From: Linderina pennispora
Lineage: Eukaryota; Kickxellomycota; Kickxellomycetes; Kickxellales; Kickxellaceae
Direction: 5' to 3'
DNA length: 64,000 nucleotides
Assembly: GCF_002104995.1 (NCBI RefSeq)
Contig: NW_024468287.1
Span: 1-64,000, forward strand
This document shows positions 24,960 to 51,980 of the stretch, piece by piece (the stretch's first letter is position 1; each line of letters starts with the position of its first letter). The position numbers and the translations under genes were made by a program. The notes beneath the pieces are model-generated. The model ran no database searches. It worked only from the letters and a program-made list of their open reading frames with translations, and was not told where the DNA came from.

Positions 24960-25126
24960 GGCTATTATTGTTTTTTTGCTACTATGTACAGGCGAAGAGT
25001 GGAAATTGATGCGGTGGAGGAATGGAAAAGCGCAGGTGAGGAGAAATCTGATGATGCGCTACGAGATTCTTCCACCCCAGCTATTTATGCCTCGCTCTCG
25101 GCATCATCTTTTCCTTCACAGTGGGT

Positions 25127-25170
25127 TTATCTGACGAAAAGATAAAGAGCGCGGCAACTCAATCGGATAA
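25127..25170. promoter_or_regulatory. Cluster of GATA sites upstream of the SRE-type gene (left arm)
   Basis: TTATCT (25127-25132), AGATAA (25140-25145) and ATCGGATAA (25162-25170) lie within 44 bp, about 170-210 bp upstream of the start codon. The last differs at one base from the extended ATCWGATAA site described for SREA-type repressors. Autoregulation is an inference. Confidence 0.45.
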
Positions 25171-25514
25171 GCCAGCCCCCGTCCCCCAAATCGCACCATC
25201 CTGCTCGGCTTTTCCAGGGCTTGGCTGATGATGATAATCTCGCTCGGAAATGCCGAGCACTCGTCGCACGCAGTAAAATAGATGACTTATTTTTCGCAAT
25301 CTGATGAGAGCATGTTCCAGAACGATTTTCCGCTGCTCATTCTCATCCTGTGCCTCAGACTGCACAAGAAAAAGTACCGCTTTTGGCCAATTCTGGCGGC
25401 CAATTCGAATACTCAATGCAGCAGCGCCTTAAACCAGCACCGGCTGCTCCTTTTCACGCTGATTCCGGAATATCTGCAGACTTTGGAAGATGGAGTGTGC
25501 ACCCAGTGCCGACT

Positions 25515-26351
25515 CGGGTTGGCAGCGACTGTAAACTCATAATACTTGCATTTATACGCTTTTGCCAGCTTTACACAGTGGATATCAAATTGCAGCAGTT
25601 GATTAGGGTGATTCTGTGGACCAACATAGACAAGACTTTAGTATAAGGAATATCCATTATACTTGGTACCGTAGAGGGGATAAGCACACAGCGAGGAGAT
25701 GAAGAACCGTGCTGGGGTTATGATTGGGGTTCGGCTGGACCACATTATGAGCAGCTTTACCTTCACTGTATCAGTATTCTAATCGCTCAGTTTGATTGTT
25801 CTGAGAATTTCTTTAGCATTCTGCCGCAAAACTATAAAAGTTATTGGGAATATGCCAATAATGGTAGAGTAGCTTTGGCGCTATTTCCTGCAATCCACAT
25901 GGCAGGGTAATACTCTTGCCTGCATGTACTTTATCTATTTGGCAGTTCTGTGTTGACATTCGGGCAATCCCACTCCCTTCGCCACCATGTGCAGATTCGA
26001 ACCCCCATCTATATAAACATTGTGAGCTGGAGCGGCCCCACCCTCTCTTTTTCTCCTCAGTATTTTCTAGTCACATTCATTCTATATTGGTTATAGCTAC
26101 TGGACTTTCCTAAGATCGACATATACTTGCCGGACTCAGCGTGGATATACTGAAAGTGCTGTTATATAAATAACCACTGCCTCCTTACGTTAGCCTGTTC
26201 GTCATTCACACCTCTATACTGCATTTAACCATTCCACTAGTCAGTTTTCTGAATATATGCCACGTATTTTGAAGAAATTAAGCTAACTTTGGCGTTCCAG
26301 GAGGTGGTATGATTGAAGTATGAGCTTTTCTGTCATATCATTCCCTAGATT
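25515..26351. other. Spacer of inverted repeat 1, promoter-like part
   Basis: Single-copy sequence between the arms. TATATAAA at 26010-26017 is followed by a CT-rich stretch typical of fungal transcription starts, suggesting a promoter for the ORF(s) at 26352 and beyond. A second TATA-like sequence lies near 26163. No coding sequence is evident here. Confidence 0.4.
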
Positions 26352-27539: not shown

Positions 27540-28189
27540 GCTGTGATGTGTACCTCTACGCCAGGTGTAGCGTCGTGTATGTCTGGGTATGGTGGGCAGA
27601 ACACCGGTGATTCGGACATTTTATCCCTCAAGTGGGCTTTCCCTACGCTAGTCACTGAAGCATAGGTAAACTACAATGGTAGGAAGCGAATTCCTTCTAC
27701 TTATATGCCAAGCAGTGGATAATGTAACTTTCGCCTAGCACACAATAAAACACAGAATGGCTGTGATCTGTGGAAACGGATGTGGTTTCAGATCGCTAGA
27801 AAACGGCAAGGTTGTCCATTGACTCTTGAGCAAGTCTTTAAAGAGAGCATAGTTGAACGCTTTTGGATGACATAAAATTCACTATATCTGTTATGCCTAG
27901 GCCGTTATATCGCAAGCACACTGTAGCCAGAGCGCTCCAATGTGTCTCATCTCGATCTCCTTTGTCCTCTGCTTCATTATTAAATCAGCTCTGCAGGAAG
28001 CGAACTGCTTGTCCATAGGACTTTCCTTCATCGTGGACTTTCCGGGCACTGGTGGTTAACAGCTGTCACACAGCATGTGCAGAGCCACTTCCAGCAATAG
28101 TACGAACAGATATGAAACAGAGGAGAAACGTATGTACTGTGCTCTTCAAGAACGTTCTCCATTCCCTGTGGGTAGAACCAGCAAGCTCA
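27540..28189. other. Intergenic spacer, nothing recognised
   Basis: About 650 bp between the hypothetical gene and the right arm of inverted repeat 1. No ORF with convincing protein character and no repeat was identified. Confidence 0.4.
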
Positions 28190-28533
28190 AGTCGGCACTG
28201 GGTGCACACTCCATCTTCCAAAGTCTGCAGATATTCCGGAATCAGCGTGAAAAGGAGCAGCCGGTGCTGGTTTAAGGCGCTGCTGCATTGAGTATTCGAA
28301 TTGGCCGCCAGAATTGGCCAAAAGCGGTACTTTTTCTTGTGCAGTCTGAGGCACAGGATGAGAATGAGCAGCGGAAAATCGTTCTGGAACATGCTCTCAT
28401 CAGATTGCGAAAAATAAGTCATCTATTTTACTGCGTGCGACGAGTGCTCGGCATTTCCGAGCGAGATTATCATCATCAGCCAAGCCCTGGAAAAGCCGAG
28501 CAGGATGGTGCGATTTGGGGGACGGGGGCTGGC

Positions 28534-28577
28534 TTATCCGATTGAGTTGCCGCGCTCTTTATCTTTTCGTCAGATAA
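28534..28577. promoter_or_regulatory. Cluster of GATA sites upstream of the SRE-type gene (right arm)
   Basis: Mirror of the left-arm cluster: TTATCCGAT (28534-28542), TTATCT (28559-28564) and AGATAA (28572-28577), about 170-210 bp upstream of the start at 28745. Confidence 0.45.
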
Positions 28578-28744
28578 ACCCACTGTGAAGGAAAAGATGA
28601 TGCCGAGAGCGAGGCATAAATAGCTGGGGTGGAAGAATCTCGTAGCGCATCATCAGATTTCTCCTCACCTGCGCTTTTCCATTCCTCCACCGCATCAATT
28701 TCCACTCTTCGCCTGTACATAGTAGCAAAAAAACAATAATAGCC

Positions 28745-29860
28745 ATGTCATTCTCCATTTCCTCGCTTCTTATCTCGACACAGCCTGAGCAGCAGCTCGA
28801 GCGGCAGCAGACTGGCGGTGTGGCAGCAACAGTACCTGTAGCGGCAACAGCACCCCTGGCCAGCACGGCACCGCTGCCGGCTGTCCGTACCATCAAGCCC
28901 ACCAGCACTCCGCGGGTGGCCCGCCAGCCAGCCGGCCCCATCTCGTGCATGAACTGCAAGACCACGACAACGCCGCTCTGGCGGCGGGATCCGACGACAG
29001 GCGCACACCTGTGCAACCGGTGCGGGCTCTACCTGAAGGCGTACAACACCATGCATCCGCTCAAGAAGACCATCAAGAAGCGCTCGTCACCGCCTGCCAA
29101 TCGCGACGGCTCGTCGTGTTCTGGCAGCTGCTGCTCGCCATCGCAGTCGTCGTCGACTGAGACCGAGTCCGCCGGCACGTGCCCTGGCAACGGCCAATGC
29201 GACGGCACAGGCGGCAGCTCGTCGTGCGCTGGCTGTCCAGCCTACAACCAGAAGCAGCTGAGCCAGGACGGACACGCGGTCAAGCGCAAGCGGGTGTCGC
29301 CCAAGCAGCAGATGCAGCAGGGCCTGACGCCGACGTGCTACAACTGCGGGGTCGACTACACGCCGCTCTGGCGCCGCGACCCCGACGGCAACGTTATCTG
29401 CAATGCGTGCGGGCTGTACTACAAGCTGCACAACAAGATTCGGCCTGTGACGATGAAGCGGGCGGTCATCAAGCGCCGCAACCGCACAACGCCGCAGCAC
29501 AGCCGCATCGAGCGGTCGCCCAGCATCGACAGCGATGCGACAGTGTGTGAGTCACCGACGCTGTGTGGGCTTGAGAGCCTGGCGATGGCGGTTGAGCTGG
29601 CTTCGGATTCTTCCAGTAGCAGCAAGAGCAGCATTAGTGCCAGCAGCACCAGCAGCACCAGCAGTGCCAGCAGTGCCAGCAGTGCCAGCAGCCAGACGCA
29701 GGACGACGACGGCGACTCGGTGATGCTGGACAGCCTGGCCAGTGTTGCGTCGCTGGAGTCAAAGCAGCAGGCAGAGAGCTACAAGGACGAGCTGCAAAGA
29801 GAGTGCGAACGCCTCCGGCAGCTTCTGGCAAGGTCCACCGCCCTTTTGAATACGCTTTGA
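28745..29860 (+). CDS. SRE-type iron-responsive GATA repressor (intact copy)
   Basis: Protein of 371 residues. Finger 1 (about 68-92; CMNC, 18-residue loop with [14 protein letters not shown]) and finger 2 (about 198-222; CYNC, 17-residue loop, CNAC) flank a Cys-rich region (about 140-170) with CPGNGQCDGTGG and CAGCPAYN. That arrangement is diagnostic of fungal siderophore/iron-uptake repressors (SREA, Sre1, Urbs1, Fep1), where the cysteines bind Fe-S or iron. Basic KRAVIKRRNR follows finger 2. A Ser-rich repeat tract leads to a C-terminal coil (ESYKDELQRECERLRQLLARS) of the kind used to bind Tup1-type corepressors. Expected role: nuclear repression of iron acquisition when iron is plentiful. 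It is near-identical to the inverted copy at 23835-24959, which lacks the coil. Confidence 0.9.
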   Translation: MSFSISSLLISTQPEQQLERQQTGGVAATVPVAATAPLASTAPLPAVRTIKPTSTPRVARQPAGPISCMNCKTTTTPLWRRDPTTGAHLCNRCGLYLKAYNTMHPLKKTIKKRSSPPANRDGSSCSGSCCSPSQSSSTETESAGTCPGNGQCDGTGGSSSCAGCPAYNQKQLSQDGHAVKRKRVSPKQQMQQGLTPTCYNCGVDYTPLWRRDPDGNVICNACGLYYKLHNKIRPVTMKRAVIKRRNRTTPQHSRIERSPSIDSDATVCESPTLCGLESLAMAVELASDSSSSSKSSISASSTSSTSSASSASSASSQTQDDDGDSVMLDSLASVASLESKQQAESYKDELQRECERLRQLLARSTALLNTL

Positions 29861-30202: not shown

Positions 30203-31753
30203 TCACTCGCGGCTAAGATCTCTTCCGTACATCCATCTGCTGGCCCAGTCAATGGCAACACGTGTTCTGTTCCTAAGCGACAGCAGCTCACTGAGGTAGG
30301 CCGACTTCCAGAACCAGAAGGTGGCCACTCCACCAGCAGTAATGTTGCGGTTGAAGAAGGGGAGGTCAGCAATAGCCTTCTCGCTTCCGATGTAAGCCAG
30401 CGATCCCTGCGACGAGTACTTGAACGGACGAGTCTTTGCGTTCATCTGCAAAAACAGGTCGGTGATGAGGTCATCATTCGACAGATGGTTGAACTTACGC
30501 GCCAACCACTTGCCCTGCTGCGAGGCGACCTGGGCCAGCGGAGCATATGACGAAACAGCACAATCGCCGAGCGCCCAAATGTCCTTAGCACCCTTGACCC
30601 GCAAGTACTCGTCAACCAAGAGACCACGTCCGTTAGTCTGGACCTCTGGGAACTTCTGGCGAATCTTGTTGGTGATAGGCTGCGCCTTGATTCCCGTAGC
30701 CCACACCAGCAGTCCGTAAGGGATTTCCGACCTCGTGCCGTCCGGGTTCTGTACAATGAACGTCTTTTCCTTAACCTCCTTGACCATGGTACGTGTCAGG
30801 ATCGAGATGTTGTTCTCCTTGAACGTGTCTTGGGTGAAAGTAATCAGCTTCTTGTCAAACGCCGGCAGCACATTGGGCATAGCCTCAACAAGCGTAATCC
30901 GCACGCGATCCACCAGCTCTGGGTACCACTTGGAAAGATCGTCCTCCATAAAGTCGTGCAGCTCTCCAGCGTACTCAATGCCCGTTGGCCCGCCACCCAC
31001 GACGACCATGTGCAGCAGACGGTCGCGCTCGGCCTCGGTAACATCATCGAACGACGCCTTCTCGACAGTGTCCATAAGACGACGACGGATCTGGCGCGCA
31101 TCGGCCATCTCCTTCAGGAAACAGGCATGCTCCTCGACACCTGGAGTGCCGAATGTGTTGACAGTGCCACCAACACCTACGACCAGGTAGTCGTAGTTGA
31201 GCTTGAACGGCTCTTCGTCCACCTTACCCTTACCAGTCAGGATCGCGTCCGAGTTGGTATGGCGCTCGAGCACCAGCTGCTTGGCATCAACATCGATATC
31301 AACGCACGCAGCCTCCAGGAACTTGACCTCGCGCTCCTTATGCCTCGTCAGCAGACGCACGGGCTCCATGATCGAGCGGTTCTCAATAGTGCCGACAGTG
31401 CAGCTGGGCAGCAGCGGTGTGAACAAGAAGTAGTTGCGCGGAGATACAACAACGACATTAAAGTTGGTTGTATCGAGGTTTTTGAGCAGAGTTGTGCTGC
31501 CCCACCCTGTGCCCAAGAGAACCAGAGTCTTCTTTGACGGGTCAAACGGCATTTGGTCGCTCGGGTTGCGGGTCGTGTACATGCTCCAGCCCATAAATCC
31601 TGCCGTGCTGAGTCCGACGGCGTATACTGCGCGCTTGATCTGGCGCAGCCGGGATGTGCGCGGCTTGGCCTGCTTGTTCAGCGTAGACATGGCTTGGCGC
31701 TGAGCAAAGGTTGTCGCCATGCGACTAAGACGAACACTTGTCCTCGCAAACAT
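30203..31753 (-). CDS. NDE1: Alternative NADH:ubiquinone dehydrogenase, mitochondrial (NDE-type)
   Basis: Rotenone-insensitive type II NADH dehydrogenase, a single flavoprotein that passes electrons from NADH to quinone without pumping protons. The 516 residues have an Arg-rich presequence (1 to about 35) and a membrane segment at 42-59 (AVYAVGLSTAGFMGWSMY). These are followed by the first dinucleotide fold (GTGWGSTT at 81-88), SPRNYFLFTPLLPSCTVGT, the second fold (VVVGGGPTGIEYAGEL, about 250-265) and the FAD-contacting WALGDC (near 391). Presequence plus one membrane segment is the layout of external, intermembrane-space-facing Nde enzymes. A paralogue is encoded in opposite orientation at 38330. 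The 1/2 numbering is arbitrary. Confidence 0.92.
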   Translation of the reverse strand: MFARTSVRLSRMATTFAQRQAMSTLNKQAKPRTSRLRQIKRAVYAVGLSTAGFMGWSMYTTRNPSDQMPFDPSKKTLVLLGTGWGSTTLLKNLDTTNFNVVVVSPRNYFLFTPLLPSCTVGTIENRSIMEPVRLLTRHKEREVKFLEAACVDIDVDAKQLVLERHTNSDAILTGKGKVDEEPFKLNYDYLVVGVGGTVNTFGTPGVEEHACFLKEMADARQIRRRLMDTVEKASFDDVTEAERDRLLHMVVVGGGPTGIEYAGELHDFMEDDLSKWYPELVDRVRITLVEAMPNVLPAFDKKLITFTQDTFKENNISILTRTMVKEVKEKTFIVQNPDGTRSEIPYGLLVWATGIKAQPITNKIRQKFPEVQTNGRGLLVDEYLRVKGAKDIWALGDCAVSSYAPLAQVASQQGKWLARKFNHLSNDDLITDLFLQMNAKTRPFKYSSQGSLAYIGSEKAIADLPFFNRNITAGGVATFWFWKSAYLSELLSLRNRTRVAIDWASRWMYGRDLSRE

Positions 31754-32491: not shown

Positions 32492-32815
32492 TCAGCAGCA
32501 TTTGAGCTTTGTGACGTGATTGTTGTCGTCCACATAGACCGTCAGCCGGTAGTGCTGCCGGTGGTTGTATTCGTCCTGTTCGTCCGGGTGCAGGATTCGG
32601 TATGGCGATGGCAGGTTGCGCTCGTATGCCTTTCGCGTTTGCGGTATGTCGTCCTCGCGCTCGTCTACCACCCAATTTTCGTGCAGATACCGGTTCATTA
32701 GCCGAGGCGACCAGTAGAACCGCCGGCATTCGTCGCCACGGATTTGTCCAGCAACACCAACAATATTGCAAAGAGCAAGAATGGCAGCGAGAGATAAGAG
32801 AAGCGAATTAGTCAT
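32492..32815 (-). CDS. Small secreted protein, I78 peptidase-inhibitor-like
   Basis: The start is taken at 32815, where a classic signal peptide begins (MTNSLLLSLAAILALCNIVGVAG, cleavage probably after the Gly/Ala pair). The mature part of about 83 residues has one Cys near its N-terminus (DECRRFYW) and a CC at the very end. The C-terminal half, SPYRILHPDEQ ... YRLTVYVDDNNHVTKLKCC, has the spacing of the I78 elastase/subtilisin inhibitor fold (R-x-I-x-P-G ... RLNV-x-V-D-x-x-g-x-I ... C). The I78 assignment is by pattern only. The longer frame start at 32866 would bury the signal peptide and is less likely. Confidence 0.6.
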   Translation of the reverse strand: MTNSLLLSLAAILALCNIVGVAGQIRGDECRRFYWSPRLMNRYLHENWVVDEREDDIPQTRKAYERNLPSPYRILHPDEQDEYNHRQHYRLTVYVDDNNHVTKLKCC

Positions 32816-33488
32816 TGCAACGATTTTTTGTAGGTTGATGAGAAAAGTATACGGACAGTTCAACAAGAGTCCTCACATTTCAATCTCACCGAGCCTGGAT
32901 TTATACATGGCCGTTGCTGTTAATAATAGACATCTTGCACACTATAGCATGCTATTTTTCGAGGCATATCTCTCAATATCGCAAAGCAGGAAGGCAGTAA
33001 TGAATTGGTTCGTGTACCTAGAGCATCTTGCGATGGCGCAACTGCACCAAAAGCGATCGAGCCGAGCCGAACCTGATTGATGCTTGCATATGAAGTCAAT
33101 GAGTGCTAGGGTAGAGGATATTAGTAGCCTAGAGGCAGCAACCCAAAGCAAAACGTAGTTGCATTGCAAGGTCTTCACTGGAGATATCTGTGCGCTTGCA
33201 GCTTGCAGAGCTGCCTGGCTGCAGGAGTAGTAGAAAAGTGGGGGCATGGAGCTTCAATGATGGCCATTCAGCTGGCTGCCTCATTAAATCACTCGACATT
33301 GTCGACCACCAGACAAACAGCCTGGCCACTGCAGCTGCTGCGAGGGGTAGTTGCACCAGCTGTTGTTGCGAACTTGACTGCTGTTTCTGCCACCGCTTCT
33401 GCTGTTTCTGCCACCGCTGCTGCTGCTTCTGCTGCTGCAAGCGATCTTGGACGAAGCATATCAAAGTCGTCGCCAGCCACGTCGATGG

Positions 33489-33495
33489 TATAAAA
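33489..33495 (+). promoter_or_regulatory. TATA box of the first secreted repeat protein
   Basis: TATAAAA 130 bp upstream of the ATG at 33625. The same box is kept in the inverted copy at 52110-52116. Confidence 0.6.
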
Positions 33496-33624
33496 CACAG
33501 GTGAGATCCAGCAGATCCAGCAGTCATCCTCAGGCTACCTACCAGCATACAGCTCTTTCTCTTGCCGCTAATCAATCCCACTCCCTCGCCACCTTCCGTC
33601 TAAGCGTAGTCTTACTCCTCAGCC

Positions 33625-34377
33625 ATGCGTACTGCCGCCTCGTTCCTTGCCATTGCCTCTGCTACCGCCTTTGCCCAGGAGATCGGTGCCACCGACGGTC
33701 CCAGCATCGTCTCGGGCTCCAACGCCATCTCAGCTCCGAACGTCAACAACGGCTGGCAGGCCGAGGGCTCGTTCTTCTCGGGTGCCAATGGCGGCCACGG
33801 CAGTCTGTTCAACAACATCGTCGGCAGCTCGTTCTCAACCGTGAACAGCAACAGCCTGTCCAAGGGTAACATCATCAACAACCCATCGTTCACCTCGGTT
33901 TCCGGCAACGACGGGTGGACTGCCAACGGCGATTCCAACCAGCTCGGTCCTGTCGGAAACTTCTTCGGCCATGGGTTTGTCCGCCGCAGCGGCGACGTCG
34001 TCTTTGCCAGCAACCACCACCAGCTGAACCGTGCTCCAGGCTTTGTCCACCCTGCCTTTGTCCATCCAGCCATCGTTGGTGCGGTGTACAGGCGCAGCAA
34101 CGACGTCGTGTTCGCCAACAACCACCACCAGGCTACCGTTGCTCCGGGACTTGCTGCTCCGGGACTTGCTGCTCCGGGACTTGCTGCTCCTCAGTTTGTC
34201 CAGCCGGTCTTTGGGACTGCTGTCCCGCAGTTCATCCAGCCTGTGGTCCAGCCAGCTTTTCAGCCTGTGGTCCAGCCAGCTTTTCAGCCTGTGGTCCAGC
34301 CGGCTTTCCAGGCTGCCCCAGTCGTTGCTGCCGAGCAGAACGGCCAGAAGGCAACCGTCATCCAGAACCAGGCATAG
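33625..34377 (+). CDS. Secreted repeat protein with dibasic-flanked peptides (putative Kex2-processed precursor), gene A
   Basis: Protein of 250 residues with a signal peptide (MRTAASFLAIASATAFAQ). A conserved N-terminal domain (DGPSIVSGSNAISAPNVNNGWQ, then SFFSG and a Asn/Ser-rich part) precedes the repeats. Two repeats begin right after dibasic pairs: RR at 120-121 followed by SGDVVFASNHHQ, and RR at 156-157 followed by SNDVVFANNHHQ. The C-terminus has three APGLA units (15-bp DNA repeats, 34141-34185) and three QPVVQPAF units (24-bp repeats near 34238-34309), ending AEQNGQKATVIQNQA. Dibasic sites before a repeated core are typical of kexin-processed fungal peptide precursors. That role is inference. 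Tandem paralogue at 35121; inverted copy at 51201-51980. Confidence 0.85.
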   Translation: MRTAASFLAIASATAFAQEIGATDGPSIVSGSNAISAPNVNNGWQAEGSFFSGANGGHGSLFNNIVGSSFSTVNSNSLSKGNIINNPSFTSVSGNDGWTANGDSNQLGPVGNFFGHGFVRRSGDVVFASNHHQLNRAPGFVHPAFVHPAIVGAVYRRSNDVVFANNHHQATVAPGLAAPGLAAPGLAAPQFVQPVFGTAVPQFIQPVVQPAFQPVVQPAFQPVVQPAFQAAPVVAAEQNGQKATVIQNQA

Positions 34378-35120
34378 CTCCTATTCTCATCACTAATATC
34401 TAGCCGTGCTGAGCACGAGCCCATTGCACTTGATGCTCTTCCAATATATCCTGCATTCATATCGCCAATCACGCAATGCAAGCCAATGCTGCCTACGTCA
34501 TAAATGTCGACACACGCTATTGTCATCATCCTGACCAACAATTCGCGAGCTGAGCAATGGCACAACAGCAGTAGCCAGACCCCCGCCTCTCCCCGATTAC
34601 GTGCATTTGGCTCGGCTTCATTTCAGAAACCGCACCGCATTGACAAAGGGACGGTCCTAGCCCAAAGAACAAATGCTGCGCACGCTGGCGACGGGGAGCG
34701 GTGTGGTTTGTTTGCGGCGTGGTTGTTCGCGGTGTGGCGATATCTGCCAGATAATGGCCACGACAAAGCCTAGCAATTGTCACAGAAACAAGCGGACCAG
34801 CCCTCGCCAAGTAGACATCAATTGGCAGAGACACACCAACAGCCTTGTTGGCTGACCGACAGTAGTGCAGACCATTTGCGTGACCGGTGAAACAAGGGAG
34901 CTGTAGGAGAATAGCTCCTACCAGCAATTGTGCCAACGCAAACTTTGAATCCCTACATCACAGGCAGCTCTAAAGGACAGGCCCGCCTAGTCCCGGATCT
35001 CTGGTATAAAGCCAGACCGGTCGCAGCCGGAGCCAGCCACCGCTACAAGCTACTGATCTCTACCAGCTCTTACTCCTCACAACTAATCCCTCGTCAACCA
35101 CAGACTACAAATCTCCAACC
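34378..35120. other. Intergenic between the two tandem secreted genes
   Basis: 743 bp holding the 3' region of gene A and the promoter of gene B (TATAAA at 35005-35010). The whole stretch is repeated in the other arm. No further coding sequence is seen. Confidence 0.5.
35005..35010 (+). promoter_or_regulatory. TATA box of secreted gene B
   Basis: TATAAA 111 bp upstream of the ATG at 35121, preserved in the inverted arm at 50593-50598. Confidence 0.6.
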
Positions 35121-35945
35121 ATGCGTACCGCCACCACCTTCATTGCCATCGCCTCTGCCTCGGCTTTCGGCCAGGAGATTGGCTCCACCGACGGCCCCAG
35201 CATTGTCTCAGCCCCTAACGCCATCTCAGCTCCGAATGTCAACAACGGCTGGCAGGCTGACGGCTCGTTCTTCTCTGGCGGATCCAGCCAGGGTGGCAAT
35301 GCCTTCACCAACATTTTCGGATCGTCTTTCTCGACTGTCAATAGCAATGATGTATCCAAGGGCAACATCGTCAACAACCCATCGCAGTCCCATGTCAAGG
35401 GTAACGACGGCTGGACTGCAAACGGCAATTCGAACCTGCTTGGTCCGGTCCAGAACACATTCAGCGCTGCTGGGTTTGTCCGTCGCAACAGCGATGTCGT
35501 GTTTGCTAACAATGCCCATCAGGTGAGTGCTGCGCCGCAAGTTGCCCACCCTGGGTTCGTCTCTGGCGGCTTTGCACCAGCCGGCGTTTCTGGCTTCGCA
35601 GTTCCTGGCTTCGCTAACAACGGTGTCGTCAGCAGCGTCTTCAAGCGCAACGGTGATGTCGTGTTTGCCAATGACCACCACCAGGCCAGTACTGTTGTTG
35701 GCACTGCCTTTGGCGTTGCTGCTCCGCAGTTTGTCCAGCCCGTGTTTGCTCCGGTCTTTGTCCAGCCCGTGTTCACTCCTCAGTTTGTCCACCCAGTTGT
35801 CGCTGAACCCATTTCTGCCTCTGCTGCAGCTCCTGCTGTTGTCCCAGAGGTTGTTGCTCCCATCGCTGCAGCTCCTGTTGCCAGTGTTCCTGTTGCTGCT
35901 GAGCAGAACGGACAGAAGGCCACTGTCATCCAGAACCAGGCCTGA
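35121..35945 (+). CDS. Secreted repeat protein with dibasic-flanked peptides, gene B
   Basis: Protein of 274 residues, a tandem paralogue of gene A with the same signal peptide style (MRTATTFIAIASASAFGQ), the same DGPSIVSAPNAISAPNVNNGWQ domain and the same C-terminal AEQNGQKATVIQNQA. Two dibasic sites again precede the repeated core: RR at 121-122 followed by NSDVVFANNAHQ, and KR at 175-176 followed by NGDVVFANDHHQ. The region after them is rich in Val, Pro, Ala and Phe (FVQPVFAP-type units). Gene A and gene B thus give four cores of consensus [S/N]-x-D-V-V-F-A-[S/N]-[N/D]-x-H-Q. Secretion is firm; peptide processing is inferred. Confidence 0.85.
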   Translation: MRTATTFIAIASASAFGQEIGSTDGPSIVSAPNAISAPNVNNGWQADGSFFSGGSSQGGNAFTNIFGSSFSTVNSNDVSKGNIVNNPSQSHVKGNDGWTANGNSNLLGPVQNTFSAAGFVRRNSDVVFANNAHQVSAAPQVAHPGFVSGGFAPAGVSGFAVPGFANNGVVSSVFKRNGDVVFANDHHQASTVVGTAFGVAAPQFVQPVFAPVFVQPVFTPQFVHPVVAEPISASAAAPAVVPEVVAPIAAAPVASVPVAAEQNGQKATVIQNQA

Positions 35946-36100
35946 ATCAAATACGAGTACTGTTATCATATAGTTGAGCTACATTCCGCTAATCTTTATC
36001 TACCTATATATAAGATTTTATAACCCAAGTGTCCGACCGTCTACTAGAATCATTTTAATCGATTAAAAAAAGTATAGAACTTTTAAACCTCAAAGCGAGT

Positions 36101-38329: not shown

Positions 38330-39742
38330 ATGCTTCCCAGATTTCGCCCTACACTCTTGGCCGCTACGCAGCGCGCCATTTATTTCCGGGCCCGTCCAAT
38401 GTCCACCATCGTCCCACACACAGAGCCGCAGAGGAAAACACTGGTTCTCTTGGGCACAGGCTGGGGATCGACCACGATCCTGAAGAACATCGACACGAAG
38501 AAATTCAACGTTGTGGTGGTATCGCCGCGCAACTACTTTCTGTTCACGCCCCTGCTCCCCAGCTGCACAGTCGGGACTACCGAGAACCGCTCGATCATGG
38601 AGCCCATCAGACACATCGTCGGCAAGCGCAATGTGAAGTTCTACGAGGCCGAGTGCACAGACGTCGATGTCACCAAAAAGCAGCTGGTGCTCGAGCGCAC
38701 CCCGCAGGCGGTTTCATCTGGCTCCAGTAACCTAAAGACCAAGATTTCCTACGACTACCTGGTGGTAGGGGTTGGCGGCACATACAACACGTTTGGTACA
38801 CCGGGTGTCGAAGAGTACGCGTGCTTTTTGAAGGAGATGACCGACGCCAGCAAGATCAAGCGGCGGCTCAAAGATGCCATTGAGAATGCCTCGTTCGACA
38901 ATATAACCGAGTCAGACCGCAGCAGGCTCCTTCACATGGTTGTGGTGGGCGGCGGGCCCACGGGCGTAGAGTATGCTGGCGAACTGCATGACTTCATGGT
39001 TGAGGATATGAAACGGTGGGTGCCCGAATTGGCCAGCAAGTTCCGGATCACGCTAATCGAGGCCTTGCCTAATGTTTTGTCGTCGTTCGACAAGAGACTG
39101 AGCGAGTACACGAAAGCGATCTTTGAGAAGAACAACATCGAGTTGCGCACCAGCACCATGGTCAAAGAGGTCAAGGACAAGGTGGTGGTCGTGCAGAACC
39201 CTGATGGCACCAGCGAGGAGCTGCCGTATGGGACGCTGGTGTGGGCAGCGGGAATCCGCGCTAGGCAGTTTGCGCACACATTGCGCGAAAAGCTACCAGA
39301 TGCGCAGACCAACCACCGCGGACTGGTAATTGATCAGTATCTGAGAGTCAAGGGCGCCCAGGATATCTGGGCATTGGGCGACTGCACGGTGACGGAGAAT
39401 GCACCGCTGGCCCAGGTCGCCTCGCAGCAAGGCAAGTGGCTGTCACGGTCGCTGAACATGATGGCAAGGGATAGGTCGGTCACTGATACGTTTTGTCAGA
39501 TGGAGGAGAGAGCACAGCCGTTCAAGTACGTGTCTAATGGCTCGCTGGCGTATATTGGTGGAGAGAAGGCGATTGCTGAGCTGCCGTTCTTCAACCAGCA
39601 CATTACGGTTGGTGGGCCATTGACCTCAGTGATGTGGAAGGGATACTGCCTGTGGGAGCTGTCCTCGGTTCGCAGCAGCATGTCGGTGGCTACTGATTGG
39701 ATTCGGCGGGCGCTGTTTGGCAGAACCGTGAGCGTAGATTAA
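38330..39742 (+). CDS. Alternative NADH:ubiquinone dehydrogenase, paralogue without membrane segment
   Basis: Type II NADH dehydrogenase of 470 residues, clearly paralogous to the one at 30203-31753. It has GTGWGSTT at 42-49, SPRNYFLFTPLLPSCTVGT, the second dinucleotide fold VVVGGGPTGVEYAGEL near 204-219 and WALGDC near 347. The N-terminus is a short Arg/Ala-rich presequence (MLPRFRPTLLAATQRAIYFRARP) that leads straight into the first fold, with no membrane helix. That is the layout of internal, matrix-facing Ndi1-type enzymes. The topology is inferred. It ends 72 bp from the TEL1 stop codon (convergent). Confidence 0.9.
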   Translation: MLPRFRPTLLAATQRAIYFRARPMSTIVPHTEPQRKTLVLLGTGWGSTTILKNIDTKKFNVVVVSPRNYFLFTPLLPSCTVGTTENRSIMEPIRHIVGKRNVKFYEAECTDVDVTKKQLVLERTPQAVSSGSSNLKTKISYDYLVVGVGGTYNTFGTPGVEEYACFLKEMTDASKIKRRLKDAIENASFDNITESDRSRLLHMVVVGGGPTGVEYAGELHDFMVEDMKRWVPELASKFRITLIEALPNVLSSFDKRLSEYTKAIFEKNNIELRTSTMVKEVKDKVVVVQNPDGTSEELPYGTLVWAAGIRARQFAHTLREKLPDAQTNHRGLVIDQYLRVKGAQDIWALGDCTVTENAPLAQVASQQGKWLSRSLNMMARDRSVTDTFCQMEERAQPFKYVSNGSLAYIGGEKAIAELPFFNQHITVGGPLTSVMWKGYCLWELSSVRSSMSVATDWIRRALFGRTVSVD

Positions 39743-39814: not shown

Positions 39815-42800
39815 TTAGTACCAAGCACTCCAGCCCTCAAACATCCTGGACAAAGAGTTCGGATCAGTAGCCTGCTGGATAAGCTCATTAACCTGCCCCT
39901 CAACGCTAATATTGGCATTGAGTCGCTTGCCCACATGCAGGATGGACCGGCTCGCCTCCTTATTGTCTTCGGCATTCATCGGCAGGGCGGCATTGGGCTG
40001 CGACGACATCCTCGTGCTGTTGATGCTGGCGGTCCGTTCGATCTTGTCGCGGCGCAGCGGGATCAACGACCACATGTAGAGTGGATCCACCTTGAGCACA
40101 TTCAGAATAGTGATGACCACCCGGGCGTTCTCGCGCATCTTGCTTAGGGCGACACGGCAGCTCTCCTTGAATGTGGCCTCCAGGCCAAACATACCCATGC
40201 CGTCTTGCATTTCGCGGGTCAGACGGAACGGCACCAATTCGGGCACCGGTAGCAATCTGCCCAGATCAAAGGCAATGCCCAGGTCGATATGCACCAGCTC
40301 AGCAGTGCGGGTGTCCACAAGGATGTTCTGCAGATGCCTATCGCCGATGCCCAACGCCCAGCCGGCCATTGAGGAAACTGCTGCCGACCGGATATACACG
40401 TCACGGCGCTCGAACCACGTCTGGGCATCGTAGAACATGCTGTAGAAGAAAAAGCGGAAGATGGGCGGGGCCTGGGCGCACACGCGGGAAAAGATGTCGA
40501 GCTTCTGCTTTGGCGTCACGTCCTTTTGTTTGTGGACATTATGCACGGCGGCGCGCATTTGCATGGTGGTAGGCGCGTCAGGACGGTATTTGGGCTCGTT
40601 CTCGCGGAACCACTCGCCAAAGGGCATGGTGCTGTCGACCCACTGCAGCACACCACAGCGCTTGGTTAGCGGCACCACCATGTAGGTGCGAATATGAAGC
40701 CGGTCTGCAGGCACCATGAAGCTGTTGATGACCTGGAACAGCTGCTCAATAACCGCATCCTGGCGCATATCATCTTTGCCCTTGACCAGCTGCTTGTACC
40801 GTTGCCCATCGGAACCCAAAAGCCGCAGAATCTTGGGCAGATTGATGCCACCGGCCAGCGAGTACCCCTCAGACATGGATGAGATGAATGGCACGCAGGT
40901 GTAGTCGCCGGGCACCCCGATCGTGGGCCGGGCAGTGAACACGGGGATGTTTTGCGGCAGATCATGCAGAAGCCGCGAAATGCGCATCTTGCTGCCAAAC
41001 CCGATAATCTTGTTGACCAGCTTCGAGCTCCGGTACTTTTCGGGAACAGCGCTGACAGCTAGCTCAATATAGACCTCGCACATCTGGTCGATGGCATCGA
41101 CGATGCTGCGCAGCTCGGCATCAGTGGATTTTAGTTGCATCAGAATGCCCTGGGCAGCCTTGCACCGTTTCTCCTCCATGTCGTCGGTCTCTGTGCGCTC
41201 CCTGCGCTTGCTCGAGGCAGCGCTCGATGTGCGGTTAGCGTTGCGCAGGGCAAACAGATGGCCGATGATGTGATACGGGTATTCGACAGCCATGCGGTAC
41301 ACCAGACGCCTTAGCACCAGATGGAACGGGGTCTCGTCAGTGCTCAGCCGGGCACACAGCTGGTGGGCCAGCGGCAGGAACTTGGCGCTGGCAATCCGGT
41401 CCACGGTCTGCTGGGCCAGAGTCTCGGCCATTTCGGGCGCAGACGCATGGGTCATCAAGAGTGAGACCAGTGGGTAGACGCTGCTGTCGAACGACCCGGA
41501 GCTCTCAAGGCAGCGCGCAAAGGCCCACACGGCAATCCGCAGAAAGCCCGAGATCTGCGACCGCATGTCCAGGACCTCGGCTTCATCTTCGGCCACCTGG
41601 GCCTCGAGCCGGCGGAGAATGCCCCGGAGCCGCGCCTGCTCCGAGCCATGAGACTCACGGATGGCCAGCTCGCACGCGCGCAGCTCGCTGTGCTTCTGCA
41701 TGCGCACGGCGATGGCCGCCTCGTCGTCCATAGAGCCCAGCAGCTCCTCGCACTGGCGCTCGGCAAAGGTCGCCAGGACATGCAGAGCCTTGCTGGTCCA
41801 CGCTGTGGGCTGTGCCGAGTGCAGGAGCGCAGCGGCCGTTTTGAAGTGCTCCTCCCACAGCACCGCCGGCCGCTCGATGCGCTGGCAGTCCATCCACTCG
41901 CCGATAGTCAGCGTGACGCGCGCCAACAGCATGCGGTCCTCGGCTGTGATCTCTCGGCGGTGCTGCGTCAGCATTTCGATGGCCAACGTGCGGCTGCCAG
42001 CCTCCCACAGAACTTCAGCCTCCCACAGGCGCAGCTCAAGGTCCTCTGTTGGCGCCAGAGATTTCAAGCGGAACACGTGGTTCATGGCCGTCTGCCAGTT
42101 GTGGGCCCGGCGCGACACATTGCAAGCCTGCAGCGCAGCCGCCTTGTACTGAGCAAACACCGCCGGTACATCGAGCGCCTGGCTTTGGGCCATGGCATCG
42201 CAGACCGAGATCTCGTGTAGCGCCAGGTTCAGCAGATACAGCGTCTCCTGATCGCTGCCAGGCCGATCGGTGCCCACACGGTCCAGCACTGACCGGACGA
42301 TTCTGGCGGTCACCAGGAGATCGCGGTTCTCGAGGGCTTTGTTGGCGATCAGCGGCATCAGTAAGCCGACAGCCTTGTGCACCCACCGCTCACCGGTGCT
42401 ATCCTCCCGCACCAGCAGCTGGCGGGCCGCCCGCTCCGCTGCCGCTGTCTGTCCGTGGGCCCGCAGACTTAGAATATTAAACAGCGTCTGCTCGGTGCTC
42501 AGCTGGCCGCCCAGCAACACCGAACTGGTGCCCGCCGGACAAACAGGCGCTCCAGGAACCTCCCATTTGGCCAGCCGCCATGCTGATGCAAACGCCGCGT
42601 CGCCATGGCTCTCCGGCGCTACCGCGGTCAGCATGCCCAGCTGCACCAGTGTGCTACCGATCTCCAGCCCATTGTTGTCGCTACCAGCGGCCTCCTGGTA
42701 CATCAGCAAGGTGCGCCAATCGGCCTGATTCCAGCACCGCCGCATCACATCGCTGGTGGTTGCCACGCTGGTCAGCAGCCGCGCCGCCGCCTGATTGCCT

Positions 42801-45800
42801 AGCCGCTGATACGATGTCATCAGAAGCGCACGCGCATCGCTTGTCAGCTCGTCAAGCCGCGGTCTCGCTTCATCCGAGCACGTCAGGTCGCATTCCAAAA
42901 GAAGCACTGCTGTCTCAGGCATATCCAGTCGGGACGCCAGTGCAGCCAGCTCAAACAGAGGCAAGGGCACCAGTTGCAGAAACTCGCGGATATCCGCGTA
43001 TTTGGCGTCCAACCGCCGCACCTGCAGCATCCGCGCCACGATCTCCCGCGCCAGCTGCGGCGACTCCTCACACCAGTTGTGCGCCAGGTCCAGAAGGAAC
43101 CCGGCCACCTCGCTGCGCATTGTCTGGCCTGCCCGCAGCACTCGGTTCAGCACCCGCGGCAGCAGCGGGCCAGCCACGCTCGGGTCAACCGAGAGCAGTC
43201 CCAATGGGTACTCTTCACCAGTACACTCGGGCCGCGACGCCAACGAACATGTGAGCTGACATAGCGCCTGGCTGGGCGTGGCTCTTTCCGGACACAGCGA
43301 CAGCAGATGCGCATCGTCGAACTGAGTCGCGAACCGCAGTTCCTGCGGCTGCCGTGGTATCGACCGCATCAGGTGCAGGCTCGAGAAGATCCGCCGGTCG
43401 CTGTCTCCGAGCTTGTCGGTTGGGTCGTCCATATGCACCGCTGCATTGATGGCCTGGCATACAACCTCAAGGTCTGTCGCCTGCCGGAATGTCCGGCACA
43501 CCAGCCATGGCAAGTCATCGCTGACATCATCGCAGCTGCCTTGAGCCTGACTGCCTGTTTGCTGCTCAAACACCTCCAGCAGCAGCCCACTCTGCATTAG
43601 CGGCGCCAGCACTCGCTCCCTCGCGATCTGGTCGCCGACAAACCCAGTAATGTGCCTGTCGACCATCTGCTTCACCTCTGTGAGCTTCACAACGGCAGAT
43701 ACCGCCAGATCAAGTTTACCTAGTGAGGTAGCGCCTGGCGAATCCTCCGGTACTGTCAGCTGCAGCAGCCGCTCAGTGCATTCGACCAGGATCTCCGCAC
43801 ACGCACCAGCATAACATTCGAGCCTTAGGTACCGCGTCGCACACTCGGCTATGTCGGCCAGGCCCATGCGATCATCAGACTCCCTGACTGCTGCAACAGT
43901 GACAACAAACCCTGGCCGGTGGCTGACCATTTCAGCGATCTGGTCCAGAGCTGACCCGAGCATTAACCATGGACCCCCGGATTCGTTCGGGTAAGCCCTG
44001 GCCACCGCGTCGATGACAGCCGCGAATATCTCCGCAAAACGCAAACTGTGGTTGGTTTGCCGCAGCAGCGAATCAGCCATGCCCGCCAGTAGATCCACCG
44101 CACACTGGCAGAACCTGTCGCGCGGACAGCGATCGAGCAGCAGGCATGCACATGCAATCTGCACATGCTCGGCTCCACTCCACGCATTGACAAGTAGACG
44201 CGCCGCCGAAATCTGCACCACATCGCTGCCTGCTACCTCGCTCGATACTATGTCAATGAGCAAAAGAACCGCAGCCAGGAGTCGCTGCCGATCGTACCCC
44301 ACTCGTGTCTGTGCGAGCTGCAAGTGAAGCCGTGTGATTAACTCGCACACGCGGGCGCCGGTCAGGTACTCGTGGACTGAGCCCGCGCCATGAGCTCGCG
44401 CAATATGCTCAATCGCACCAATAACCGGCGCACGGCCATAGTAGACACTCCATTGCGGCATGTTGGCATTGGCATATTGGGTCTCTGCAAGCCCAGCGCA
44501 AATCCGGCCAGCAGACGTAAGCTTACCAATGTCAAGCTGTTTGATCGAGACCAACCGCAGCAGCTGGAATACCAGGTCGGATGACCGATCGGTTAAAAGA
44601 TCCTCGAGAACAAGAGACGTGAACTTCGGAACCAGCAGTTCCTCGCGGATCTTCGCATACCGGTCCACATCCGCTGCCGATATCACCAAGGCATGTGCAA
44701 ACAGGCGCTCGAGACAGTAGTTGCGGAGCCCCGGAGCCAGACCACTGACCAACTCCCCGGCCCTCGCAATATCACCCTCCACCATACGATCCACTGCCAA
44801 CTCTGCCACCACCCGGTCGCCAAACTCCGGGTCGCCGCTGGTGAGCCCTGCTGGCAAAGTGTCAAACACGTCTCTGTCTATCCGCAGTAGCTCAGGGACA
44901 TACCGGGAACACATCGTCACCACATCAGTACCGCTGACAGTTTCCGCAATATACGCCAATAGCCGATGGCAGAGACTCGACACCACATGCATGTCCGCTG
45001 TGAGCTGCTTAAGCAAAATCACCAGTGCTCCAGGAACAACACACTGCGATCTTGCCACCAGCATCGCCAGGCCCAGGTCGCGCGTCACTAGGTTGCTGAT
45101 GCTACCCGAGGTGCCTGCCATTTCATACACCACGGCGCCATCCATTGTGATGAATTTGAGCCGCAGCCGGTGCCCAGCGAGCTCAGCCTCAGCCGCCAAG
45201 CGCGCACCAAACCCGGGCGACATCTGCACGCAGTCCGTCAGCACATCGACGCCGGAACCCTCCAAAGCTGACAGCGCTCTGCCCAAGCCATGCTCGTTGC
45301 GACTCCACGGTCCGACAATCAGCCGAATAAACGCCGTTTCCACACACACGTCGACTCGCCCATTCTTGGCCTCCACCGCCAACCACGCAATGAACCGCGC
45401 CAAGTCGTCGCCCACCGCCTTATGCTCCTGAGCAAAACACCGCACCACACGGGCGACTGTAACAAGCACCGCGTGCATTGTGGGCATTTCCAATGCGTCG
45501 CTGTCGAGGAGCCCGAGTGCCCGGCCCACCAGTTTCTGTCCGGCTGGCCCCGAGGCTGCACCAGCGCGTATAACGCAGTCGGATATAAATTCGCACGCTA
45601 CAAGGAACGATGTGTCGTCCAGGCCTGTGATTGCTTCCTCAAGCGCTGTTGCCAGCCCAATGCATTCTCCGGACATGTGCACCACGCTGACAGCCGACGC
45701 CAGCCAGCGCCACGGCTCCGGATGCAAATCACAGGAGAAGCATCGCATGCGTGTCTCGCACAAATGCCCTGCCTGGCTTTTCCCGCGCCGACTGAGCGAC

Positions 45801-48744: not shown

Positions 48745-49179
48745 TCAACGGAACACTCTGGCTCGACGTGCCAGGTGGGGTGGAGCTAGGCCAAGCGACG
48801 GAGGCTGGACCCCAAGATGGGCGACATGCTCGGGAGTTGCAAAGAACGTGTTGGTGAACTGGGGGATCCGCTGGCCATCAGACCCAATCTCAACATGCGC
48901 AGGTATAATCAGGCCGGCTCTCTTGCCGAATCTAGTATCACCACCCAGCGCCCCGGGGAATGGAGCCAGGCCGTCTTGGAGCTGAAATTCGCCAGATAAA
49001 CCCTGAACGAACCCTTCAGGCACGCCGCCGGAAGCGAGCACTGACCCAATACTCCCAAATCCGCTGTTAATGTCTGGAGATGAAACTCCAAGCGATCCAT
49101 CGGTGACGCGCGCTCCAATTGAAACCCCGTGTTGCTGGCAGAAAACAGGGGTGGCAAGTGCTAGGACAAAGAGCTTCAT
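48745..49179 (-). CDS. Small secreted protein with dibasic sites
   Basis: The start is placed at 49179, where a signal peptide begins (MKLFVLALATPVFCQQ). This fits a TATAAA box at 49255-49260 (reverse) about 76 bp upstream. The longer frame to 49230 would add 17 residues before the signal peptide. The mature protein of about 128 residues is Gly/Ser-rich (VTDGSLGVSSPDINSGFGSIGSVLASGG), has no cysteines after the signal peptide, and carries dibasic pairs in FGKRAGLIIP and near the C-terminus (HLARRARVFR). These could be kexin sites, as in the neighbouring repeat proteins. The family is unknown. Confidence 0.65.
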   Translation of the reverse strand: MKLFVLALATPVFCQQHGVSIGARVTDGSLGVSSPDINSGFGSIGSVLASGGVPEGFVQGLSGEFQLQDGLAPFPGALGGDTRFGKRAGLIIPAHVEIGSDGQRIPQFTNTFFATPEHVAHLGVQPPSLGLAPPHLARRARVFR

Positions 49180-49617: not shown

Positions 49618-49657
49618 AATGTAGCTCAACTATATGATAACAGTACTCGTATTTGAT

Positions 49658-50482
49658 TCAGGCCTGGTTCTGGATGACAGTGGCCTTCTGTCCGTTCTGC
49701 TCAGCAGCAACAGGAACACTGGCAACAGGAGCTGCAGCGATGGGAGCAACAACCTCTGGGACAACAGCAGGAGCTGCAGCAGAGGCAGAAATGGGTTCAG
49801 CGACAACTGGGTGGACAAACTGAGGAGTGAACACGGGCTGGACAAAGACCGGAGCAAACACGGGCTGGACAAACTGCGGAGCAGCAACGCCAAAGGCAGA
49901 GCCAACAACAGTACTGGCCTGGTGGTGGTCATTGGCAAACACGACATCACCGTTGCGCTTGAAGACGCTGCTGACGACACCGTTGTTAACGAAGCCAGGA
50001 ACTGCGAAGCCAGAAACGCCGGCTGGTGCAAAGCCGCCAGAGACGAACCCAGGGTGGGCAACTTGCGGCGCAGCACTCACCTGATGGGCATTGTTAGCAA
50101 ACACGACATCGCTGTTGCGACGGACAAACCCAGCAGCGCTGAATGTGTTCTGGACCGGACCAAGCAGGTTCGAATTGCCGTTTGCAGTCCAGCCGTCGTT
50201 ACCCTTGACATGGGACTGCGATGGGTTGTTGACGATGTTGCCCTTGGATACATCATTGCTATTGACAGTCGAGAAAGACGATCCGAAAATGTTGGTGAAG
50301 GCATTGCCACCCTGGCTGGATCCGCCAGAGAAGAACGAACCGTCAGCCTGCCAGCCGTTGTTGACATTCGGAGCTGAGATGGCGTTAGGGGCTGAGACAA
50401 TGCTGGGGCCGTCGGTGGAGCCAATCTCCTGGCCGAAAGCCGAGGCAGAGGCGATGGCAATGAAGGTGGTGGCGGTACGCAT
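49658..50482 (-). CDS. Secreted repeat protein gene B, inverted copy
   Basis: Protein of 274 residues, identical to the 35121-35945 product except for two changes I can see: Ala to Val in GFANNGVV, and Thr to Ser in VVGTAFG. Signal peptide, both dibasic sites with DVVFAN cores and the C-terminal AEQNGQKATVIQNQA are kept. The TATA box is mirrored at 50593-50598. The coding frame is intact. Confidence 0.85.
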   Translation of the reverse strand: MRTATTFIAIASASAFGQEIGSTDGPSIVSAPNAISAPNVNNGWQADGSFFSGGSSQGGNAFTNIFGSSFSTVNSNDVSKGNIVNNPSQSHVKGNDGWTANGNSNLLGPVQNTFSAAGFVRRNSDVVFANNAHQVSAAPQVAHPGFVSGGFAPAGVSGFAVPGFVNNGVVSSVFKRNGDVVFANDHHQASTVVGSAFGVAAPQFVQPVFAPVFVQPVFTPQFVHPVVAEPISASAAAPAVVPEVVAPIAAAPVASVPVAAEQNGQKATVIQNQA

Positions 50483-51200
50483 GGTTGGAGATTTGTAGTC
50501 TGTGGTTGACGAGGGATTAGTTGTGAGGAGTAAGAGCTGGTAGAGATCAGTAGCTTGTAGCGGTGGCTGGCTCCGGCTGCGACCGGTCTGGCTTTATACC
50601 AGAGATCCGGGACTAGGCGGGCCTGTCCTTTAGAGCTGCCTGTGATGTAGGGATTCAAAGTTTGCGTTGGCACAATTGCTGGTAGGAGCTATTCTCCTAC
50701 AGCTCCCTTGTTTTCACCGGTCACGCAAATGGTCTGCACTACTGTCGGTCAGCCAACAAGGCTGTTGGTGTGTCTCTGCCAATTGATGTCTACTTGGCGA
50801 GGGCTGGTCCGCTTGTTTCTGTGACAATTGCTAGGCTTTGTCGTGGCCATTATCTGGCAGATATCGCCACACCGCGAACAACCACGCCGCAAACAAACCA
50901 CACCGCTCCCCGTCGCCAGCGTGCGCAGCATTTGTTCTTTGGGCTAGGACCGTCCCTTTGTCAATGCGGTGCGGTTTCTGAAATGAAGCCGAGCCAAATG
51001 CACGTAATCGGGGAGAGGCGGGGGTCTGGCTACTGCTGTTGTGCCATTGCTCAGCTCGCGAATTGTTGGTCAGGATGATGACAATAGCGTGTGTCGACAT
51101 TTATGACGTAGGCAGCATTGGCTTGCATTGCGTGATTGGCGATATGAATGCAGGATATATTGGAAGAGCATCAAGTGCAATGGGCTCGTGCTCAGCACGG

Positions 51201-51980
51201 CTAGATATTAGTGATGAGAATAGGAGCTATGCCTGGTTCTGGATGACGGTTGCCTTCTGGCCGTTCTGCTCGGCAGCAACGACTGGGGCAGCCTGGAAAG
51301 CCGGCTGGACCACAGGCTGAAAAGCTGGCTGGACCACAGGCTGAAAAGCTGGCTGGACCACAGGCTGGATGAACTGCGGGACAGCAGTCCCAAAGACCGG
51401 CTGGACAAACTGAGGAGCAGCAAGTCCCGGAGCAGCAAGTCCCGGAGCAGCAAGTCCCGGAGCAAACGGTAGCCTGGTGGTGGTTGTTGGCGAACACGAC
51501 GTCGTTGCTGCGCCTGTACACCGCACCAACGATGGCTGGATGGACAAAGGCAGGGTGGACAAAGCCTGGAGCACGGTTCAGCTGGTGGTGGTTGCTGGCA
51601 AAGACGACGTCGCCGCTGCGGCGGACAAACCCATGGCCGAAGAAGTTTCCGACAGGACCGAGCTGGTTGGAATCGCCGTTGGCAGTCCACCCGTCGTTGC
51701 CGAAAACCGAGGTGAACGATGGGTTGTTGATGATGTTACCCTTGGACAGGCTGTTGCTGTTCACGGTTGAGAACGAGCTGCCGACGATGTTGTTGAACAG
51801 ACTGCCGTGGCCGCCATTGGCACCCGAGAAGAACGAGCCCTCGGCCTGCCAGCCGTTGTTGACGTTCGGAGCTGAGATGGCGTTGGAGCCCGAGACGATG
51901 CTGGGGCCGTCGGTGGCACCGATCTCCTGGGCAAAGGCGGTAGCAGAGGCAATGGCAAGGAACGAGGCGGCAGTACGCAT
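51201..51980 (-). CDS. Secreted repeat protein gene A, inverted copy with frameshift
   Basis: Matches the 33625-34377 product through both dibasic-flanked DVVFA cores. One extra T in ACCGTTTGCTCC (near 51468) then shifts the frame, so the APGLA and QPVVQPAF repeats are replaced by a Cys-rich tail (CSGTCCSGTCC) that ends in the former 3' region. The original frame remains open and would end at 51227. Since the peptide cores lie before the shift, a processed-peptide function could survive. An assembly error in the T run is an equally simple explanation. Confidence 0.75.
   Translation of the reverse strand: MRTAASFLAIASATAFAQEIGATDGPSIVSGSNAISAPNVNNGWQAEGSFFSGANGGHGSLFNNIVGSSFSTVNSNSLSKGNIINNPSFTSVFGNDGWTANGDSNQLGPVGNFFGHGFVRRSGDVVFASNHHQLNRAPGFVHPAFVHPAIVGAVYRRSNDVVFANNHHQATVCSGTCCSGTCCSGTCCSSVCPAGLWDCCPAVHPACGPASFSACGPASFSACGPAGFPGCPSRCCRAERPEGNRHPEPGIAPILITNI

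Follow-up and report, generated by a model that had tools for sequence, protein, structure and literature searches.

The window analysed here, a stretch of 64,000 nucleotides, lies on contig 156 of the 26.2-Mb genome of Linderina pennispora (order Kickxellales, phylum Kickxellomycota). Two tandem genes lie on its plus strand, each an uninterrupted open reading frame supported by homologue search and encoding a secreted-looking precursor: gene 1 (33625..34377, 250 aa) and gene 2 (35121..35945, 274 aa). Both proteins have a hydrophobic N-terminus and an Asn/Gly/Ser-rich domain reaching to about residue 120 (hereafter the N-domain), followed by a dibasic RR, core 1, a variable linker, a second dibasic pair (RR or KR), core 2, a variable proline-bearing tail and a conserved stretch formed by the last 14 residues. 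In the translation of gene 1, RR at 33982..33987 and RR at 34090..34095 stand directly before core 1 (SGDVVFASNHHQ, 33988..34023) and core 2 (SNDVVFANNHHQ, 34096..34131), respectively, and the conserved C-terminal residues, EQNGQKATVIQNQA, occupy 34333..34374 according to a 35-row alignment. Gene 2 has RR at 35481..35486 before core 1 (NSDVVFANNAHQ, 35487..35522), KR at 35643..35648 before core 2 (NGDVVFANDHHQ, 35649..35684) and, in the same alignment, the conserved C-terminal 14 residues at 35901..35942. Matches to a TATA consensus, identified as such only, are found 136 bases upstream of the start codon of gene 1 (TATAAAA, 33489..33495) and 116 bases upstream of that of gene 2 (TATAAA, 35005..35010).

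The cores were delimited by a core pattern and by comparison of all 12-mers within each protein. The core pair was the top 12-mer pair in both proteins, its score being equalled in just 2 of 21945 non-overlapping pairs of gene 1 and 2 of 27261 of gene 2, and the two top-scoring pairs of each protein represent the same core in two registers. These data confirm the first-pass annotation, made from the DNA letters, which had placed two tandem genes, correctly, at 33625..35945 with two cores apiece after RR or KR. It had also assigned a signal peptide to each gene; a signal-like hydrophobic stretch, running to AFA or AFG and then Q, is indeed present in genes 1 and 2 as a candidate, although it was recognized solely by eye. 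AlphaFold2 placed a low-confidence helix at residues 3-13. Neither protein contains cysteine. The third-position GC of gene 1 (0.71) and gene 2 (0.61) is within the range of seven other measured genes (0.53-0.74), and codon bias was therefore dropped as a sign of high expression.

Genes 1 and 2 are situated in one arm of a genuine inverted repeat (33143-35985 versus 49618-52462), which aligns in three blocks at 99-100% complementarity and is 99.54% identical across 2843 aligned bases. The other arm had been claimed to carry two further genes of this kind. This holds for gene 2, whose arm copy on the minus strand (49658..50482) is intact by ORF and alignment and encodes a 99% identical protein, but only in part for gene 1, whose translated arm copy (51201..51980, minus strand) keeps both cores and is frameshifted in the tail, being out of frame after core 2. 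The frameshift may be real decay or a sequencing error. Both genes are present in both orientations on contig 168 as well, where each gene has two copies with the same protein sequence and the gene 1 copies are intact. A comparison of the four arms revealed 99 sites at which both arms agree and contig 156 differs from contig 168, compared with 2 sites uniting arms of different contigs and 17 single-arm differences, which indicates that the arms have been homogenised within each contig. This apparent concerted evolution looks like arm-to-arm gene conversion. A left-right value of 90.9% for contig 168 is not an arm identity, because stretches beyond the arms were counted in.

Several other features were observed in the neighbourhood. 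A second inverted repeat (24051-25523 / 28181-29653, 99% over 1473 bases) bears a GATA zinc-finger gene in duplicate, identified by a Pfam run on the 28745 copy. Paralogous genes for type II NADH dehydrogenases (NDH2_C; 30203-31753 minus and 38330-39742 plus) flank genes 1 and 2 on both sides in opposite orientations. A minus-strand gene (39815-48412) occupies the greater part of the spacer that separates the arms; its 2865-aa product is PI3-kinase-like, has TAN and FATC domains and is presumably of the Tel1/ATM type. The gene at 32492-32815 (minus) encodes a protein of 107 aa whose N-terminus is signal-like and which has no Pfam match, and a 733-aa protein at 59897-62098 (plus) appears by eye to combine 7TM and RGS-like regions and had no Pfam match at E 1e-5.

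A homologue search returned 34 proteins out of 7468 candidates at E 0.001, including the gene 2 protein of the window itself. All 33 named homologues belong to Linderina, Coemansia, Martensiomyces and Dipsacomyces, the last three of which we take to be Kickxellales; because a hit requires five-residue words in common, the search may have overlooked distant relatives elsewhere. One of them, P0003, a record of L. pennispora, is identical in sequence to the gene 1 copy on contig 168. The family alignment of 35 rows comprises the 34 homologues, among them the truncated P0002, and gene 1, and is shallow (Neff 2.6). At the curated cut-off, no Pfam family was matched by genes 1 and 2, the arm copy of gene 2, P0010, P0022 or P0034, and the precomputed Pfam assignments of the 34 homologues held none either. 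Sub-cut-off matches of gene 1 to PT (E 0.0069) and GLTT (E 0.043) were attributed to low complexity in the tail. The gene 1 protein, the only query used against solved structures, found no relative there at E up to 1, and AlphaFold2 on the 35-row alignment gave no usable model (mean pLDDT 46.6, pTM 0.14), which, given the shallow alignment, shows neither fold nor disorder. The earlier claim of a new family is thus borne out by scanned members lacking a Pfam model at cut-off and by 33 named homologues from four genera. In the literature searched, no paper contains both Kickxellomycotina and Kex2, and among the papers listed none deals with this family, judged by title and abstract opening; three papers containing the letters DVVFA treat other subjects, judged likewise, and SGDVVFA and GDVVFADNHHQ were not found.

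Further candidate or decayed members were seen in the L. pennispora genome. A 48745..49179 (minus) protein is a probable diverged member, which resembles the family in its first ~50 residues and then continues as FGKRAGLIIPAH (hhalign against the gene-family profile A1, E 4.7e-5, probability 68%). The protein of 54745-55647, which looked like a relative by eye, was dropped at an hhalign probability of 0.65%. Two copies of the DVVFA family, at C1:2.94M and C188 (coordinates L009 2204-2932 and L013 17-701, minus), look decayed; that at C1:2.94M has lost its first dibasic site (HC), the single such loss observed, and has an altered core too.

Across the 35 aligned proteins, [KR]R lies 0-2 residues upstream of 72 of 72 pattern-detected cores (2 residues in 66 cores, 1 in 4 and 0 in 2), although these are not 72 independent tests because the homologues are related. 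Three altered cores missed by the pattern (the first of P0021 and the third of P0029 and of P0031) are likewise all preceded by a dibasic pair. Thus, no protein of the database set has lost the dibasic pairs while keeping the rest, which the first-pass annotation had named as the finding that would speak against its proposal. The 35 proteins contain 76 basic runs, far above the mean of 7.1 and the maximum of 17 in 200 shuffles. A second pattern found a core behind 73 of these runs, two more precede a core or its remnant by eye (P0021, DVLFA; P0031, NSVTITNN), and a single one, RRAASA of P0022, has no core behind it; P0033 holds the sole further basic pair, a KK close to its C-terminus. Three proteins have one run, 24 have two, seven have three and one has four. 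Pairs are of the KR (32) or RR (46) type, with one KK and no RK, so that R occupies the second position in 78 of 79. The first pair begins at residue 115-130 in 34 of 35 proteins (residue 120 in gene 1 and 121 in gene 2), the exception being the truncated P0002.

The residues around these sites were compared with the preferences of kexin. Yeast Kex2 accepts aliphatic residues at P4, and 72 of the 76 family sites carry V, F, I or L there. At P1', 66 sites have S, G, D or A, 9 have N and 1 has Q; both positions are uniform when counted over all sites jointly. Sites cut by Kex2 in vitro are reported to be enriched in small or acidic residues at P1', P2' and P4' (PMC2515848), which the small or acidic P1' found here fits; the charged P4 that the same report expects for some enzymes is not what the family sites carry. 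Moreover, a profile search of the genome gave one match to the proprotein-convertase P-domain, and a catalytic exon near it at the same locus had yeast Kexin 1ot5 as its best match among solved structures (7e-50). Judged from these matches, a kexin gene is present in the genome, as are S10 carboxypeptidase genes.

These data could also be read as a secreted protein that stays uncleaved, in which [KR]R and DVVFA together form a binding or structural motif. The motif is conserved in its entirety, and a conserved KR can indeed stay uncut, as is probably the case in native Pry proteins in a study where a third of the tested proteins were uncut (PMC2515848). However, the spacing between dibasic and core varies, K and R interchange at the first position of the pair while R at the second is nearly invariant, and the pair is kept in paralogues with unrelated sequences behind it (see below), which together make a purely uncleaved protein quite unlikely.

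Conservation, taken as the mean majority frequency per column of the 35-row alignment, is 0.84 in core 1 and 0.78 in core 2 but 0.35 in the first linker and 0.34 in the tail linker, as the first-pass annotation had proposed in setting a conserved core against variable linkers. The N-domain (0.74) and the last 14 residues (0.76) are kept nearly as well as the cores, however, and conservation therefore fails to single out the core. The first-pass annotation had also suggested comparing nucleotide substitutions between core and linker. Between contigs 156 and 168, gene 2 shows 19 synonymous and 25 nonsynonymous differences; its pN is 0.008 for the N-domain, 0.030 for the first and 0.029 for the second segment of site plus core, and 0.113 and 0.065 for the linkers. 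The core values say little because each segment of site plus core has one nonsynonymous change, and the last 14 residues are uninformative because they have no change of either kind. Up to core 2, gene 1 shows 11 synonymous differences and 1 nonsynonymous difference between the contigs. Between genes 1 and 2, pN is 0.18 in the N-domain, 0.15 in each site plus core and 0.40 and 0.30 in the linkers, and the last 14 residues have pN 0 at pS 0.48.

The core itself had been suggested to be the product. No dibasic pair follows HHQ anywhere in the family, however, and kexin alone therefore cannot yield a 12-residue core; the predicted products would be about 30-108 residues long with the core as their N-terminus. 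Predicted inner fragments have 30-60 residues (34 for the second fragment of gene 1), except for one 8-residue piece in P0022, and predicted last fragments have 58-108. In five DVVFA proteins measured, FVILMYWA residues make up 43-53% of the fragments versus 31-35% of the N-domain. In our judgement there is an even chance that these genes encode a kexin-processed secreted precursor whose peptides are probably surface or wall material. After removal of the signal peptide, the precursor would pass through the Golgi, where kexin (Kex2) would cut behind each [KR]R and a Kex1-type carboxypeptidase would trim off the basic residues, releasing a conserved Asn/Gly/Ser-rich pro-region of ~100 residues. 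Most members would give two peptides, 3 of 35 one and 8 of 35 three or more, each starting with xxDVVFA-N/D-xHHQ or a variant, and the last one would mostly end in the conserved NGQKAT-IVQNQA. The sequences show the gene structure, the core repeats, the retention of dibasic sites and their fit to kexin, the paralogues with other cargo and the kexin gene; cleavage itself, trimming, secretion and a surface role we infer. The peptides are most likely extracellular surface or wall material like the Ustilago Rep1 repellents and not a small pheromone, a role favoured by inference from the Rep1-like layout and composition; the long variable linker that stays attached to each core in the predicted products counts against the precursor reading as a whole.

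A short N-terminal core that is conserved across genera and repeated behind kexin sites would also suit signals (pheromones or hormones) of the Kickxellales, and the pheromones of most early-diverging fungi are left open in a survey of KEPs (PMC6339444). We regard this as quite unlikely, since the products would be long, the linkers change fast and most members have two copies. The first-pass annotation had named pheromones and ribosomally made cyclic peptides as known products of such repeat proteins. The pheromone reading gained no support from the genome, in which no match to the STE2 or STE3 family was found. A modified or cyclic RiPP precursor of the dikaritin kind agrees with the signal-like N-terminus, the repeated core and the kexin-type sites, but the core lacks a second site behind it, no match to UstYa was found in the genome and none turned up when 8 neighbouring proteins were compared with Pfam at E 1e-5; we consider it highly improbable. 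A search of the genome for the hydrophobin family gave no match either. All four genome-wide negatives (STE2, STE3, hydrophobin and UstYa) carry little weight, because 0 of 14 control genomes matched any of these families.

The strongest new evidence, independent of the DVVFA proteins themselves, comes from predicted paralogues that share the N-domain and have unrelated sequences behind the dibasic. Four of them occur in the same genome, C79a (C79:266.5k), C79b (C79:268.2k), C1:3.157M and C162:54k, with N-domain matches at E 1.9e-25 to 1.4e-15 and, for profile A1 against A3 (the C79b type), an hhalign E of 5.6e-19; C1:3.157M and C162 resemble two copies of one gene. Their dibasic begins at residue 123-132 of the tabulated frames, and three of the four (C79b, C1 and C162, not C79a) end in IVQNQA. 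The unrelated sequences behind the dibasic are DGAYHAAAAPAGEY; SVVERALA/SIVDRALA/GIVERAPV; and GGYGGEPVGYG. In C79b (L010 4707-5363), an extra dibasic stands at residue 21, right behind the signal-like stretch, and three 8-residue units lie between KR/RR pairs with LAKR spacing, forming a short KEP-like array that brings C79b nearer to typical KEPs than the DVVFA proteins are. Such octapeptide units are found three times in P0035 and twice in P0036, from another L. pennispora record, so that their number differs between the two records, and P0037 of L. macrospora has another array. Retention of the dibasic in proteins without DVVFA would be explained by a processing site but not by a structural DVVFA motif.

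The same paralogues bear on how many of the sites would be used. If kexin cut the first site only, the products would be a pro-region and one structural wall protein of PIR-like kind with core 2 as an internal repeat; the first dibasic is common to every paralogue type and begins within residues 115-130 in all aligned proteins but the truncated P0002, and Kex2 is proven to cut Pir proteins (PMC2515848). Nevertheless, the later sites are retained as strictly as the first with uniform P4 and P1' over all sites, no protein of the 35 has a cysteine beyond residue 20, and Pfam scans found no PIR repeat domain in the window genes (up to E 1) or in P0010, P0022 and P0034 (up to E 10), and such restricted cleavage is thus unlikely. 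Returning to cleavage at every site, we tentatively suggest, as a possibility short of a likelihood, that the family is a conserved secretion scaffold with exchangeable, predicted kexin-released cargo, in which the DVVFA peptide is a candidate coat or signal peptide of Kickxellomycota, possibly the first. The scaffold would consist of the N-domain, the first dibasic at about residue 115-132 and often a C-terminal IVQNQA, and its cargo would be DVVFA peptides, LAKR-spaced octapeptides or GGYGGEP-type tails.

Signalling and surface peptides have received little study in early-diverging fungi. The role of KEPs in these fungi is said to remain to be determined (PMC6339444), and the main texts of two KEP surveys (PMC6339444, PMC7329392) contain no mention of Linderina, Coemansia or Kickxell-. 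Judged by its sequences, the DVVFA family is a real one with a kexin-type architecture that spans several genera, and most of its members are under the repeat threshold of both surveys, having too few repeats for either published screen. It supplies exact predicted N-termini for mass spectrometry, and, judging from the paralogues in which the cargo is exchanged, screening for the shared pro-region and the dibasic behind it would reveal more.

Compared with known systems, hydrophobins have an eight-cysteine pattern, which is absent here given that all 35 proteins lack cysteine beyond residue 20. The XA/XP dipeptides of STE13-type trimming, typical of alpha-type pheromones, are not found behind any of the four window sites and occur behind 4 of 76 family sites (in P0022, P0027, P0028 and P0030). 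Dikaritin (ustiloxin-type) precursors are alike in general layout (PMC9769878), but the DVVFA core, unlike theirs, is not closed by a second site. PIR cell wall proteins, like this family, have an N-terminal part ended by a kexin-type site and internal repeats. KEPs share with it a signal-like N-terminus, repeats behind KR/RR (all 72 detected cores) and a kexin in the genome; however, the surveys set a minimum of three repeats separated by Kex2 sites (PMC6339444, PMC7329392), whereas the window proteins have two sites and two cores and 27 of 35 family proteins have fewer than three sites, the other 8 with three or four being those that might pass. Moreover, unlike in KEPs, the N-domain and mostly the C-terminal end are common to paralogues with other cargo. 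KEPs of Coprinopsis have been expressed in Pichia pastoris (PMC9769878). Rep1 of Ustilago maydis has 12 repeats and yields, on Kex2 cleavage, amphipathic peptides (ten with 35-53 aa, one with 228) that are reported to form amyloid-like fibrils on hyphae (PMC4617103). The DVVFA window proteins differ from it in holding two cores, but are likened to it by layout and composition: the peptides that kexin is predicted to release have sizes similar to those of Rep1, some tens of residues, and the last fragment is longer. In our best reading, the two genes encode a kexin-type precursor whose layout appears most like that of Ustilago Rep1.
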